Below are positions 19,590-23,832 of a DNA stretch of 64,000 nt, piece after piece (within the stretch, counting starts at the first letter, position 1; each line of letters starts with the position of its first letter). This stretch comes from Branchiostoma floridae (taxonomy: Eukaryota; Chordata; Leptocardii; Amphioxiformes; Branchiostomatidae): contig NC_049985.1 in the NCBI RefSeq assembly GCF_000003815.2, positions 24,599,673 to 24,663,672 on the forward strand, in the 5' to 3' direction. Under the pieces are notes generated by a model, which was not told the DNA's origin, searched no databases, and saw nothing but the letters and a program-made list of their open reading frames with translations. A program made the translations under genes and the position numbers.

Positions 19590-22500
19590 CTACTTGATGC
19601 CCTTGGCAGCCAACTCCTCTGTCACCCTTTTCAGATAACCAGGGTCAGGATAACCATGCCTAAAGAAAAAGGAAGTACATGTAATACGTTTATCAGCTGT
19701 GAACAGTCATGGTATTTGCCAAAGACATAAATCTAAATCTTGTTTTGTCTGTATATTGAATGAGACCTGGGTTTTAAAACATTACGCAAATACACAAAAT
19801 ACGTATCTGGGACATCTATGGCCCAAAAGATAGTCTTACTCGTTGAAAACATTACATGAGCTCGCAATAACATAAGGGGAATACCTTTAAAACTTTTAAG
19901 TCAAAGTCAATGAATTGTAACATAATTTAAAATGAAATTCATGCTGATTCTTGATATATAAAAGCTTGTGTATACATACATGCTTAGTCCTCCATGCGTG
20001 TTGGTCTTGTGATGAATGTCGTTCCATGTCACTGTGTCACTGTATCCTGATGTTGAAGATGTTCCAATGGTGAAGGTCAGCTTCTGTTCAAAAGCTTGTT
20101 TCAGAAGACGAAGCACTTTTATTCCATCAGCATTATAAGGGAGATATGCTTTGCGAGTTGTTCCTGTGTAAGGCTTACCCGGGTTGGGGTGCTCTGACTG
20201 GAAAAAATAGTAGCAATTACTCTTAGAAGACACCAATAAAATGTACTTAAGTTACCAATGACACCAAACACATTTTTACACCTTTGACCAAATTACCAGG
20301 AAGTAAAATGTTTGTGCTAATTCATATTCAGAATCACACTTTGGTCACTTAGAGTCAATTCCAAGTCACCGAGATGGTTTTGAAATAATATTTGTAATAA
20401 GTTTGAAATATTTTGATTAAAAGAACATTTCAGTCACTAAAGTTCGAAATTGTTCAAACATTTCAAAATGAAAGTTTAAACATATTTAAACCTTTTTATA
20501 TTTGTTGGAACATTTGGGAAAGTAATGATATAATTATCTCTTTATTTAGAACAATTTTCAAACATCTATGTGTTTTTGTTACTGTTCCAACATGTTCCAA
20601 CATTTTGTGTCATTTTTTCCCTCCATAAAAACTTTTATTGACCCCATAAACAAAGCTGCTAAGCTTGGTCCTTTGTTTGGCTCTTGTATTTTTAGACTTT
20701 CTTTAGTATACACTGGTGAGTCTTTTGTGAGAAGGTGGCAGACAGACATAATTTCCTGCACTTGGCAGGGATGTGTGAATTGCCCTCTTCCCAGCCCACT
20801 GACCCAGTTTCATCATATTGTTTCCATGTTGGAACATGTGATCACAAATGATGCATCTATGTTGGAACAGTTTAGAAACTAACAGAAATAATGCATTTGA
20901 TGTTAGAAATGTTTCTAACATGTTTGAATACTATAGAAATATTTAGAACGTCACATAGATGTTATAAATAGTTCTAAACAGTTACTTATCACAGTTAGAT
21001 TGTTACAAAGATTTTCAAAATGTTGGAACAAAAGGCAAGAAACACCCTCTCGGTAATATGGAATCGACTCTACTCTATCTATGGTTGTTGATCATAATGA
21101 AACAAAACATCTAACCTACCCCTTGTATTCCATCTCTAAAAGCATAGTCGATGATGATGGTTCCGGTTCGTTTATAGCCAGCAAGATTCCTTTGTCTGTA
21201 GTAGGAAACCTTCATGCTTCCTTCAGGCTGGTTTCCCATCAGTTTCCCCACAACAGTGCTGCAGACTGGACAGAATGGTGTTGTCTTCATGGCCTTGTCC
21301 AGACACTTCTTGCAGAACACGGCCTTACAGCCTCGGGCTTTGCAGGGAGGAGAGCGCGGATTTGTTGGCACCGACAGGCAAATAGGGCATATGACATCAT
21401 TGTTCTTTTCGGTAGTTACTTGCCCTGATTTTGTGTTTTTGGTAGCAGTCCCTGTCAGGTTGGTGACTCTTTCTCTCGCACTTGTAGCGACGGGGATGGC
21501 CAGTAGGCCACAGAAGTCTGCCCTAGCTGCCCTTATTTTTTCTGGTTCTCCCATGAACATCACTGTCGTGTCATCATCAGTGGACTTTGTAATCACTTCT
21601 GGGTGGTCTTGCCTCACTTTCCTGATACTATCAAAAATAGATATCAGAGTTAAGTTGTACTGGGCAACATTGAAGTTTTTACACGTTATCTTGCTAAATA
21701 CCTTTTGGTAGAGTGTGATGAATTCATCAATGGCCATCTCTGGTTGAGGATTCCTTCCCTGTGAAGGGGACGGTACAAAGTATGCTTTTGTGTTGTCCAT
21801 GCTTGTATGAAACACAGACTTGTACCTTTTAACAATATCTGTTATCTCTGCATGGTGATTATGGCGAATGTAAAATAGAACATCTGGGTCTACAAACACT
21901 TCAAATTTGTCAGTCTGTCCTTGTTCTGATTCAGAACTGCTAGGAACATCTTCAGTGCTGTATTCTTTGTGGTCCTCACGTTCATCATCGGACAACAGTG
22001 ATGCAGCTGTAAATACAGTATCAGTAAGAAAGTCGTTAGTGCTTGACCGCAAGACTTTACTTAACAGAAGCACATGCAAATATAACATTTAACTGTTATT
22101 GCAAGTCCACATAGAATGCCTACTATAAAACTCTGTTCATAGCATGAGACTTACTTCCGTCCCATGTTCACTTGAGTCAAGTCTTAGAATTTTAATATCA
22201 ATATGTGGTATGAGACTATCCCTCATTTGATAAGGGCAAGGGATAAATTTGTAACACATCCTGCATTGTTTCAGCATGAGCTTGACCGTTCTTCAGTATT
22301 GGGAAACAGTGTGGGTAAGGGGAGAAGGTCTGAATTTTTTTAAATGAATTGTTGACTGAGTAACATTGATGCCTTGTTGACAGAGTCACATTGGCATCAT
22401 GCCAAACTCGGTCACCACCATGATTGTTCGATAACATACAAGACCCGATATTCATGCAAATGAAAGTGTATCGGGTCTCGAGGCTCATATTCAAATACAG

Positions 22501-23832
22501 GAAAATGCTAGGGTCAAACTTATTGACATGACGTTTGTCATGATTTACAAGAAAAAATCGTTGCCTTAAAAATCCGCAGAATTTTTACAACTCACCATGC
22601 ACCATTCTGCTCACATTTCCCAACACGTTGTCCTCAGGTGATCTCAGAGAAAGACCTGTTCTTGAGCTCGCTCCGCTTTGCTGCGCACGTTTCAGAAGAG
22701 AACACAGTTCCCTCTCCGTCGCCTTTGGTAGACTGTATTGAGCAGTTTTAGGACTGTTCTTGGTCAACTTATTCCCCATGACAGAGTAATCAATTGTGAT
22801 GTTTGCCAGTTTAAAGTCCACTTTGTCTGCGGGTGGTTTAGTCAACTCGTTCAATCTTGCTGCCATATCCTGTGAGAAAGACACAACTTCGTAGTCGTCT
22901 CCCTCCCGAGCTAGAGTCTCTGCAAACTCACACGTGCTCTTGGCGCTCGCCAGACTGATCTGTGCTCCCTCTATCTCTGCATCGATCTGTTTCTTCCTGG
23001 ATGTTTCCTCTGTATCGATACAGGTAAGGAGCCGATCGCTTTCTTCCTTTACCATCTCAATCAAGCTTTGTGCGGTTTTATGGACGTTCTGACGAGCCCC
23101 CTCTGCGTTCAGCTGAAGTTGTTCTTTCAAGCGTTTCTGCACTTCTTCCGCTTGACGAAAGAATTGCATTCGGGCCTGGCACTGTGGTGTGAGATCTAAG
23201 ATTGTCTTTCTCTTCTCGGTAGCTACATCTTCTATGCGCTTGAGGTCGTGCTGTGAGTCCCTGTGTTCAACCAAGACACATTCGTTGCATATTGGCATCT
23301 CACAGGTCCTGCAATAGAGCTTCAGGATTTCTTCTGGATGTTTGGAGCACGGTGGAGCTTTTCTAGCCCTGAAGACGCTGTCGTATTTTCCTGTTTTCAG
23401 TTCCTCAAAAATGATGAGCGTGTGACCCCTGGTAGCTCTTACAAGACGATGCGCGGACTCACAACTCTCACACAGAAACTCGGCACACTCCGAACACCTG
23501 GACGTGGCTGGTTTCCCTTCCTCACAATTGGTGCAGATGACGTCATCTTTACCGTGGTGAAGCTTATGATGCGCCGTCACGGCTTTCACCAGGCTAGCGA
23601 TAAAGAAGTTGTCCTTTAGACCATCGACGCCATTTTGGGGCAAGGGAACTGGCTGACGACAAATAGGACACGGAAAGGTGTCGCCACCGTTCTTCTGGAC
23701 CCATTCCCGCAGACAGTGCTCACAGAAGGTGTGCAAGCAGGGAAGAACCTTCGGGTTCTTAAAGGTGTAGAAACAGATCGTACACTGGGTGGAGTCGTCG
23801 CTGACTTTCTCTGGGAGAGCGGCAGTCGCCAT
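19590..23832 (-). CDS. TRIM-Deltex chimeric E3 ligase, copy 2 (intact, 803 aa)
   Basis: Exons: 23832-22596 (ATG), 22006-21120, 20197-19980, 19659-19590 (TAG). Lengths of 1237+887+218+70 give 2412 nt, with matching phases 1, 0 and 2. The first exon is a TRIM module: RING with Cys17, 20, 32, His34, Cys37, 40, 55, 58; two B-box-like zinc segments (~91-135 and ~152-190); a coiled coil (~200-310). After the junction come KH-like segments (~446-585; [17 protein letters not shown]), a second RING (~618-660; CPICLS...CPVC) and the Deltex C-terminal domain (~664-803) with [27 protein letters not shown] and [16 protein letters not shown]. Deltex domains cooperate with the adjacent RING and can bind ADP-ribose; His, Tyr and Glu at the known active positions are kept. 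No macro domain is present, unlike copy 1 and the 38-53 kb gene. The predicted role is a double-RING ubiquitin ligase; substrates are unknown. The phases argue for one transcript, but RNA proof is lacking. Confidence 0.88.
20351..21071. mobile_element. TIR element in the last-but-two intron of copy 2
   Basis: The ends AGAGTCAATTCCA (20351) and TGGAATCGACTCT (ending 21071) form imperfect inverted repeats of about 27 bp. The corresponding intron of copy 1 is only about 180 bp and lacks the segment. The interior is rich in short GTTCCAAC/GTTGGAAC inverted motifs. No protein is seen. Confidence 0.65.

Follow-up and report, generated by a model that had tools for sequence, protein, structure and literature searches.

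TRIM-Deltex units in the genome of Branchiostoma floridae: a predicted gene that joins a TRIM exon in phase to a KH-RING-DTC tail

Does a TRIM module followed on the same strand by the terminal part of a Deltex protein mark one gene or two? The question is raised by positions 19590–23832 of a 64,000-nt stretch of the Branchiostoma floridae genome (hereafter the window; NC_049985.1, 24,599,673–24,663,672, forward strand), in which a TRIM coding exon precedes exons for a KH domain, a RING and a Deltex C-terminal domain (DTC). The analysis indicates that this interval is probably one gene whose TRIM exon is spliced in phase 1 to a KH-RING-DTC tail derived from a neighboring DTX3L/PARP14-like gene, with similar captures elsewhere in the genome. 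The window-type TRIM-Deltex units are termed copies 1–4, or collectively the c-copies, copy 2 being the middle one at 19590–23832; other genomic stretches carry L-numbers.

Copy 2 occupies four exons on the minus strand. Exon 1 (22596–23832) carries the TRIM module, comprising a RING, two B-boxes and a presumed coiled coil, and ends in phase 1 at the donor G|GTGAGT. The junction intron (22007–22595; 589 nt) reads GTGAGT...CACTAAC...TTTACAG and leads into exon 2 (21120–22006) which, according to Pfam and the spliced translation, encodes a leader, KH_DTX3L, a second RING and the start of DTC. Exon 3 (19980–20197), recognized by DTC search and structure match, specifies the DTC core with the motif WNDIHHKT that includes the equivalent of DTX3L H707, and exon 4 (19590–19659) supplies the end of DTC, the E733 equivalent and the stop codon, with AATAAA 65 nt downstream. 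Concatenation of the four exons, which are bounded by GT/AG sites, yields 2412 nt from the ATG at 23832 to the stop ending at 19590, specifying 803 residues with a single terminal stop in the order TRIM-KH-RING-DTC. The coordinates and splice sites proposed in a first-pass annotation of this DNA proved exact to the base, 22596 standing before GTGAGT and 22006 after TTTACAG, and the in-frame phase-1 join of TRIM to Deltex that it had predicted is confirmed by this reading frame.

The domains of copy 2 that scored above curated Pfam cut-offs are the N-terminal RING, two B-box stretches (zf-B_box, E-value 6e-15), KH_DTX3L (30.7 bits versus a cut-off of 27.4), the second RING (RING_2, 28.8 versus 27.3) and DTC, for which the exon 2 segment scored 29.8 bits versus 25 over the first 39 positions with the core in the following exon. 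Among solved structures, residues 657–802 matched DTX3L (3pg6, E-value 5e-49), DTX2 and DTX1, and the N-terminus matched TRIM3, TRIM2, TIF1-beta (TRIM28), TRIM56 and PML; the alignment with TRIM28 structures covers residues 23–238 only, and the coiled coil is presumed. Copy 2 thus resembles DTX3L in the order of KH_DTX3L, RING and DTC and in retention of the catalytic His and Glu, but a TRIM module stands where DTX3L has RRM and further KH domains. Similarly, the RING and both B-boxes are shared with TRIM2/3, TRIM28 and TRIM56, which are of the RING-B-box-B-box-coiled-coil (RBCC) type, whereas the tail of copy 2 is Deltex. Pfam detected neither NHL nor B30.2 nor any other usual TRIM tail in the window exons scanned. 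The Deltex tails of copies 1–4 are most closely related to RRM1, a minus-strand gene of the window (38594–53700; Pfam, the approximate 5′ limit being that of the first-pass annotation) that has four RRM_PARP14_3-like domains, KH_DTX3L, a macrodomain, RING and DTC. It had been described as a four-RRM gene with a KH-RING-DTC tail and without TRIM, which holds with the amendment that a macrodomain also precedes the RING-DTC portion.

As had been noted, each of the three window copies has the phase-1 junction, and copy 4, which lies 15–18 kb outside the window (L009; C7, 24.58 Mb), has it as well. The four are duplicates of one unit, common intron included, and so this recurrence is not independent evidence for the join. 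Copy 1, on the minus strand, has a TRIM exon (12769–13953, with homology to copy 2 starting near 13935) that is devoid of the ATG and the first RING cysteine pair and has the donor A|GTGAGT at 12769/12768. Its exon 2 (11230–12249, 3′ end hand-read from the donor) encodes KH_DTX3L and the first part of a macrodomain, exon 3 (9731–10407, ends hand-read) encodes the remainder of the macrodomain and the DTC start without a second RING, and the last DTC exons (8940–9551) keep the catalytic His. In copy 3, also on the minus strand, the TRIM exon (34229–35465, donor G|GTGAGT) is followed by exon 2 (32797–33652) with KH_DTX3L and RING, which is broken just past the DTC start; the remaining DTC exons are at 28294–29168. 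The intervening insertion (29169–32796, without assigned strand) is 3628 bp by hand count with ~1.05-kb terminal inverted repeats that are 92% alike and with TTAA on both sides, and we take it to be piggyBac-like from this target site. The TRIM sequence of copy 4 is spread over three frames, and its donor and acceptor are as in the other copies. A single protein that combines two RINGs with B-boxes and DTC, as predicted, is thus fully borne out only for copy 2, whereas copies 1, 3 and 4 are damaged or altered. The N-terminal RING that is a trait of the TRIM family was found by Pfam in copies 2 and 3 and partially in copy 1, and KH_DTX3L exceeds the cut-off in copies 1–3 and RRM1.

Both halves of the c-copies are constrained. 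The ratio of nonsynonymous to synonymous substitution rates (dN/dS) for TRIM is 0.19–0.21 among copies 1–3, and comparison of copies 2 and 4 gave values of 0.29 for KH (p 2e-6) and 0.14 for the DTC core (p 5e-6), the p values deriving from simple Fisher tests on rounded counts. The comparisons for RING and for the first DTC piece were weaker and some were not significant. Copy 4 (L009:6607–8404) has a mosaic structure: the 3′ end of TRIM and the intron closely resemble those of copy 2, with introns 94% alike, though KH and the DTC core are far diverged from it (dS 0.43–0.45). Gene conversion among the copies is the likely cause, and as the copies exchange sequence dS is not a clean clock.

Is the arrangement confined to one duplicated unit? 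The DTC family gave 39 genome matches that were grouped into 20 loci, five of them in the window, and 10–30 kb around each of the 15 others was searched by tblastn with TRIM, KH, macro and RING-DTC probes. A same-strand TRIM is positioned directly upstream at eight of the 20 loci, namely copies 1–4, L018, L024b, L025 and L026; two further TRIM-probe matches, in L020 and L027, fall on the Deltex RING and were left out of the count. By a separate inspection of the window, no TRIM was found there upstream of RRM1 or of RRM2 (57640–60925), a further gene without TRIM that encodes macrodomain, RING and DTC and whose RING is of the ordinary C3HC4 type. When copies 1–4 are counted once, an upstream TRIM is found at 5 of 17 loci compared to 0.041 expected within 5 kb, a rough figure in which 494 first-look candidates were taken as the number of TRIMs.

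The fusions at the other loci differ in form. L024b (C7, 5.89 Mb) is an intact TRIM-RING-DTC unit of four exons and 596 residues whose junction (L024 8199/8480) also is phase 1 to phase 1 (CATG|GTAAGT...CACCAG|GA) and whose Deltex tail differs from that of copy 2. A RING directly ahead of DTC, as is characteristic of the Deltex family, is present in copy 2 and L024b and not in copy 1 or L026. In L025 (C7, 21.8 Mb) one frame extends from TRIM into the first half of RING, and in L026 (C19) TRIM and the beginning of DTC share a single 486-codon open frame; the DTC piece in this frame has a Pfam E-value of 0.049, under the cut-off, and the following exon matches DTC with an E-value of 4e-26. As the joins in L025 and L026 lie inside single open frames, guesswork in the placement of splice sites cannot explain them. 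L018 (C4) has a distant TRIM (~35% identity) with the donor TCAG|GTAGTT and the acceptor TTAG|AC, both in phase 1, and the frame past the acceptor reads through a KH-like region and a macrodomain to the end of the frame.

Whether the two parts of the c-copies form one gene was examined further at the junction. A single search with the copy 2 intron returned six matches at five genomic places: copy 2 itself, copies 4 (two matches), 3 and 1, and L029. Intron identity is 69–74% among copies 1–3. Indels between copies in the exon 2 leader, few in number, measure 27, 15, 12, 6 and 3 nt and all are multiples of three; in the intron, 1–3 of the 5–13 indels per pair are multiples of three. The first Met of exon 2 falls at approximately residue 150, 69 and 142 in copies 1, 2 and 4, respectively, inside KH. 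Two signs of separate genes that had been fixed beforehand, a poly(A) signal in the intron and a shared Deltex start, were sought in the DNA: AATAAA is absent between TRIM and Deltex in the four c-copies, ATTAAA is present there in copies 2 and 4, and no start codon upstream of, or in, the Deltex part is common to the c-copies. A constrained KH without a shared start requires an upstream coding exon, for which TRIM is the nearest phase-1 candidate. Constraint on each half also would be expected of two adjacent genes, and the argument consequently rests on the missing start. Two further lines were discarded. The contrast in poly(A) signals between intron and gene ends is weak evidence: within 400 nt past the stop, AATAAA was found in copy 2 and RRM1 only and ATTAAA in copies 3 and 4, with neither signal at the other six of ten ends. 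Conservation of a branch point does not establish splicing: no invariant run in the five introns is longer than AGCACTAAC, but a run of this length was reached in 4786 of 20000 shuffles.

Several observations weigh against a fused gene. If unspliced, the TRIM frame of each of the four c-copies continues across the donor for just two or three codons before a stop, and a TRIM-only product would thus be made easily. In copy 3 the third codon of exon 2 encodes Met, in-frame Met codons precede the acceptor in copies 2 and 4, and the invariant AGCACTAAC run is not significant. Three of the four c-copies (1, 3 and 4) are damaged. Elsewhere, the RING of L025 is split, with its second half and DTC ~0.7 kb further on; the AG of the last acceptor in L026 has been lost; and the KH of L018 was found by tblastn and not reached by Pfam, with an ATG right past the acceptor of the Deltex exon that makes a separate start possible. 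Moreover, two predicted lancelet fusions reportedly were refuted by expressed sequence tags, and some predictions were errors (PMC4967905).

The early stop is shared by two alternatives. One gene may give two products, the main one being TRIM alone through retention of intron 1 with a stop and poly(A) site inside it, and TRIM-Deltex being a minor or induced isoform. The stop and the donor coexist in all four c-copies, so that each TRIM exon can end in this manner; set against this are the fast evolution of the intron, the absence of AATAAA from it, and the lack of conservation of the short unspliced tail (SE, GEL, GEW). This arrangement is rather unlikely, and as it overlaps with the single fused gene the probabilities attached to the explanations do not sum to one. 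Alternatively, an intronless TRIM gene with its own stop past the donor may lie next to a Deltex gene that has a promoter and start of its own; the phases would then match by chance, and the pair would have been duplicated together. Besides the early stop, the refuted lancelet precedents (PMC4967905), the ATTAAA and in-frame Met ahead of exon 2 in copies 2 and 4, and the occurrence of TRIM alone in the stretch fetched for L032 are in keeping with separate genes. This alternative nevertheless appears improbable given the single-frame joins in L025 and L026, the phase 1-1 match at separate junctions, the intron without AATAAA, and the copy 1 exon 2 that has no Met before residue ~150. Thus, a TRIM exon spliced in vivo to the Deltex exons, and translated as a fused protein, would best account for the locus.

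Are the fused tails catalytically competent? The catalytic pair of DTX3L is reported to be H707 and E733 (PMC10810221). Comparison of copy 2 with 3pg6 revealed that both equivalents are kept, as the first His of WNDIHHKT and in EEL near the end, the placement of the pair being suggested by a spacing of 26. The motif was read in 14 of the 20 loci and additionally by eye in L028. HH is retained in copies 1–4, L018, six TRIM-less loci and also L028, and is replaced by PH in L024b, EL in L025 and SL in L026. These last three are the fusions without a KH match, and all have lost the H707 equivalent. The DTC core of L024b nevertheless is constrained in comparison with that of the TRIM-less locus L012 (dN/dS 0.11, p 1e-7), whereas that of L026 is near neutral (0.59–0.67 versus L012 and L024b), which also counts against a functional fusion there. 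L024b may therefore be an ADP-ribose reader and L026, with its acceptor AG gone, may be a decaying tail. More broadly, the fusions could be by-products of fast gene turnover that are functionless as fused proteins, as the damage in copies 1, 3 and 4, the acceptor loss and relaxed DTC of L026, and the loss of the catalytic His at three loci would suggest. This explanation is quite improbable, considering that copy 2 and L024b each retain four intact exons and that dN/dS is 0.14 (copies 2 and 4) and 0.11 (L024b and L012) for the DTC core and ~0.2 for TRIM.

The second RING shows a further difference from the DTX3L arrangement: copies 2–4 and RRM1 have CKxxxCKAVFC where L012 and L024b have CKHKFC, and L025 has CKGTFC. 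Copies 2–4, RRM1 and L025 have another residue in place of the His ligand, preceded by an additional Cys. The change was not present in seven other RINGs that were read; L019 has Asn at the His position.

How many times were Deltex tails acquired? DTC trees were built from 15 of the 20 loci initially and from 13 for the approximately unbiased (AU) test. L021, L022 and L023, in which the motif patterns matched nothing, L027, whose core breaks off, and L028, whose exons are cut differently, were excluded, and L014 and L019, which cover one part only, were dropped from the AU-test tree. Copies 1–4, L025 and RRM1 form one clade (100/99), and L024b groups with TRIM-less L012, although not firmly (62/62). 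In the TRIM tree 7 of 11 forks are open. A single fusion origin was rejected by the AU test, both for one clade of seven TRIM-linked tails, L018 not among them (p 3e-45), and for copies 1–4 with L024b without long rows (p 5e-52); TRIM linkage was the criterion for the test groups, which were drawn up once the first tree was known. The TRIM-linked tails thus stem from more than one Deltex lineage, which implies that capture occurred two or more times, barring a later exchange of tails. Replacement of tails by gene conversion following one origin is possible and would give the same AU signal, and conversion does happen at these loci as the mosaic structure of copy 4 attests. The DNA homology of copies 1 and 2 to RRM1 has its start at one and the same RRM1 base, window position 41223, which in both copies corresponds to a point 101 nt inside exon 2 and is what would be expected of a single truncation breakpoint; weak protein likeness to RRM1 may reach somewhat further upstream. 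The homology of L024b to L012 starts 17 nt before the acceptor. The first-pass proposal that an RBCC module was joined to a 5′-truncated DTX3L-like gene is therefore supported by the common breakpoint, and it is extended by a different use of the same intron in L029.

In L029 (L029:225–2369), a TRIM exon with the intron and acceptor of copies 1–4 continues in frame into the MLLE domain of poly(A)-binding protein (PABP; E-value 4e-32), giving 533 residues. The MLLE piece is uninterrupted and the best match elsewhere in the genome is divided between two sites ~0.7 kb apart, which gives the piece the look of a retroposed copy. One intron accordingly serves two unrelated partners and is not specific to Deltex. 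The window TRIMs belong to a sharply delimited clade of at least 13 loci with at least 65% identity, copy 4 (listed in pieces) included, the next match being 39%, as judged from 101 of the 494 candidates that were scored. Seven of the 13 have a Deltex tail. Among the other six are L029, L024a and L031, which runs into N; L030, L032 and L033 had no KH, RING-DTC or DTC match within the stretches fetched. L024a (L024:2003–5114) retains the TRIM donor in an unchanged position (NVSRMTG|GTAAGT), and downstream of it is a phase-compatible open exon of 128 codons that has no Pfam match. It is proposed tentatively that this clade is a tail-swapping E3 ubiquitin ligase platform whose phase-1 donor took up Deltex at least twice (at most four times, with the separate TRIM of L018 included) and a retroposed PABP MLLE once, and which gave rise to ADP-ribose-directed writers with active DTC and readers that lost the His, perhaps as fast-evolving antiviral sensors linking TRIM, PARP14/DTX3L-type ADP-ribosylation and RNA binding.

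The ~100 bp ahead of the TRIM ATG is alike in most of ten copies (window 23833–23940 and 35466–35575, L009, L024, L026, L029, L030, L031 and L032), and L024a has only the last stretch of it. By eye, TGA(T/C)GTCA and CAGGAAGT each recur in seven of the ten; we presume these to be CRE- and ETS-like, respectively. The region is perhaps a compact common promoter.

In the TRIM family the RBCC part dimerizes and the C-terminal part selects the target. In the proposed mechanism, the Deltex tail would replace this usual target-binding domain, with the RBCC part dimerizing and supplying one RING E3, and the tail would find ADP-ribose on proteins or nucleic acids. With His and Glu in place (copy 2; His also in copies 1, 3 and 4 and L018), DTC would put ubiquitin on ADP-ribose, after which the TRIM RING might add or lengthen chains, whereas in the KH-less fusions L024b, L025 and L026 any DTC that persists could act as no more than a reader. 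Fusion in cis thus would predict an E3 recruited by ADP-ribosylation with a second RING for chain growth, and suggests a reaction order of ADP-ribose recognition, ubiquitin transfer to ADP-ribose and chain growth by the second RING in cis. For known proteins, DTC is reported to bind ADP-ribose and, with its RING, to move ubiquitin onto it (PMC10810221).

Among known systems, gain of a foreign tail by a TRIM module recalls TRIM5-cyclophilin (TRIMCyp), which L029 repeats with its intronless PABP MLLE piece. Unlike TRIMCyp, the Deltex tails stem from more than one lineage and keep introns, and so arrived by DNA duplication. In vertebrates, interferon-linked defense has TRIMs and DTX3L/PARP9/PARP14 as distinct arms, which TRIM-Deltex genes would combine in one polypeptide. 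The PARP9-DTX3L/PARP14 system likewise brings macrodomain, KH, RRM and Deltex parts together (PMC13224862), and RRM1 and copy 1 have macrodomain and Deltex in one gene, but no ADP-ribosyltransferase (ART; PARP) domain was found by Pfam among the window exons scanned, and TRIM is newly added. Four clustered PARP14-like proteins are reported in B. floridae (PMC13224862). DTX3L orthologs are reported to be traced only to sharks and rays (PMC11594159), and KH_DTX3L-bearing Deltex genes in lancelet would be older than this tracing. Lancelets are reported to show extreme exon shuffling with a 1-1 phase bias (PMC4284660). The present loci bear on the dispute as to whether lancelet domain pairs are real (PMC4284660) or often gene-prediction errors (PMC4967905), as these sources present it, since L025 and L026 join their parts in one open frame without involvement of splice prediction. 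No description of a TRIM-Deltex protein was found in titles and abstract openings of the open literature among the matches listed, and the main text of PMC12373286, as far as it was available, has no relevant mention of TRIM or Deltex.

Other features of the window lie outside the TRIM-Deltex units. A 26-bp minisatellite with the consensus CAGGGACAGGGAAACACAGTCAGCAC is located between RRM exons at 45368–46524 (45.5 copies) and 48199–48480 (~11 copies) and is open in several plus-strand frames. A run of N, which is an assembly gap or a masked stretch, is at 54864–55854. A 1140-codon open frame at 4289–7711 encodes an endonuclease and reverse transcriptase of a non-long-terminal-repeat retrotransposon, and a further reverse transcriptase is at 37036–38100.

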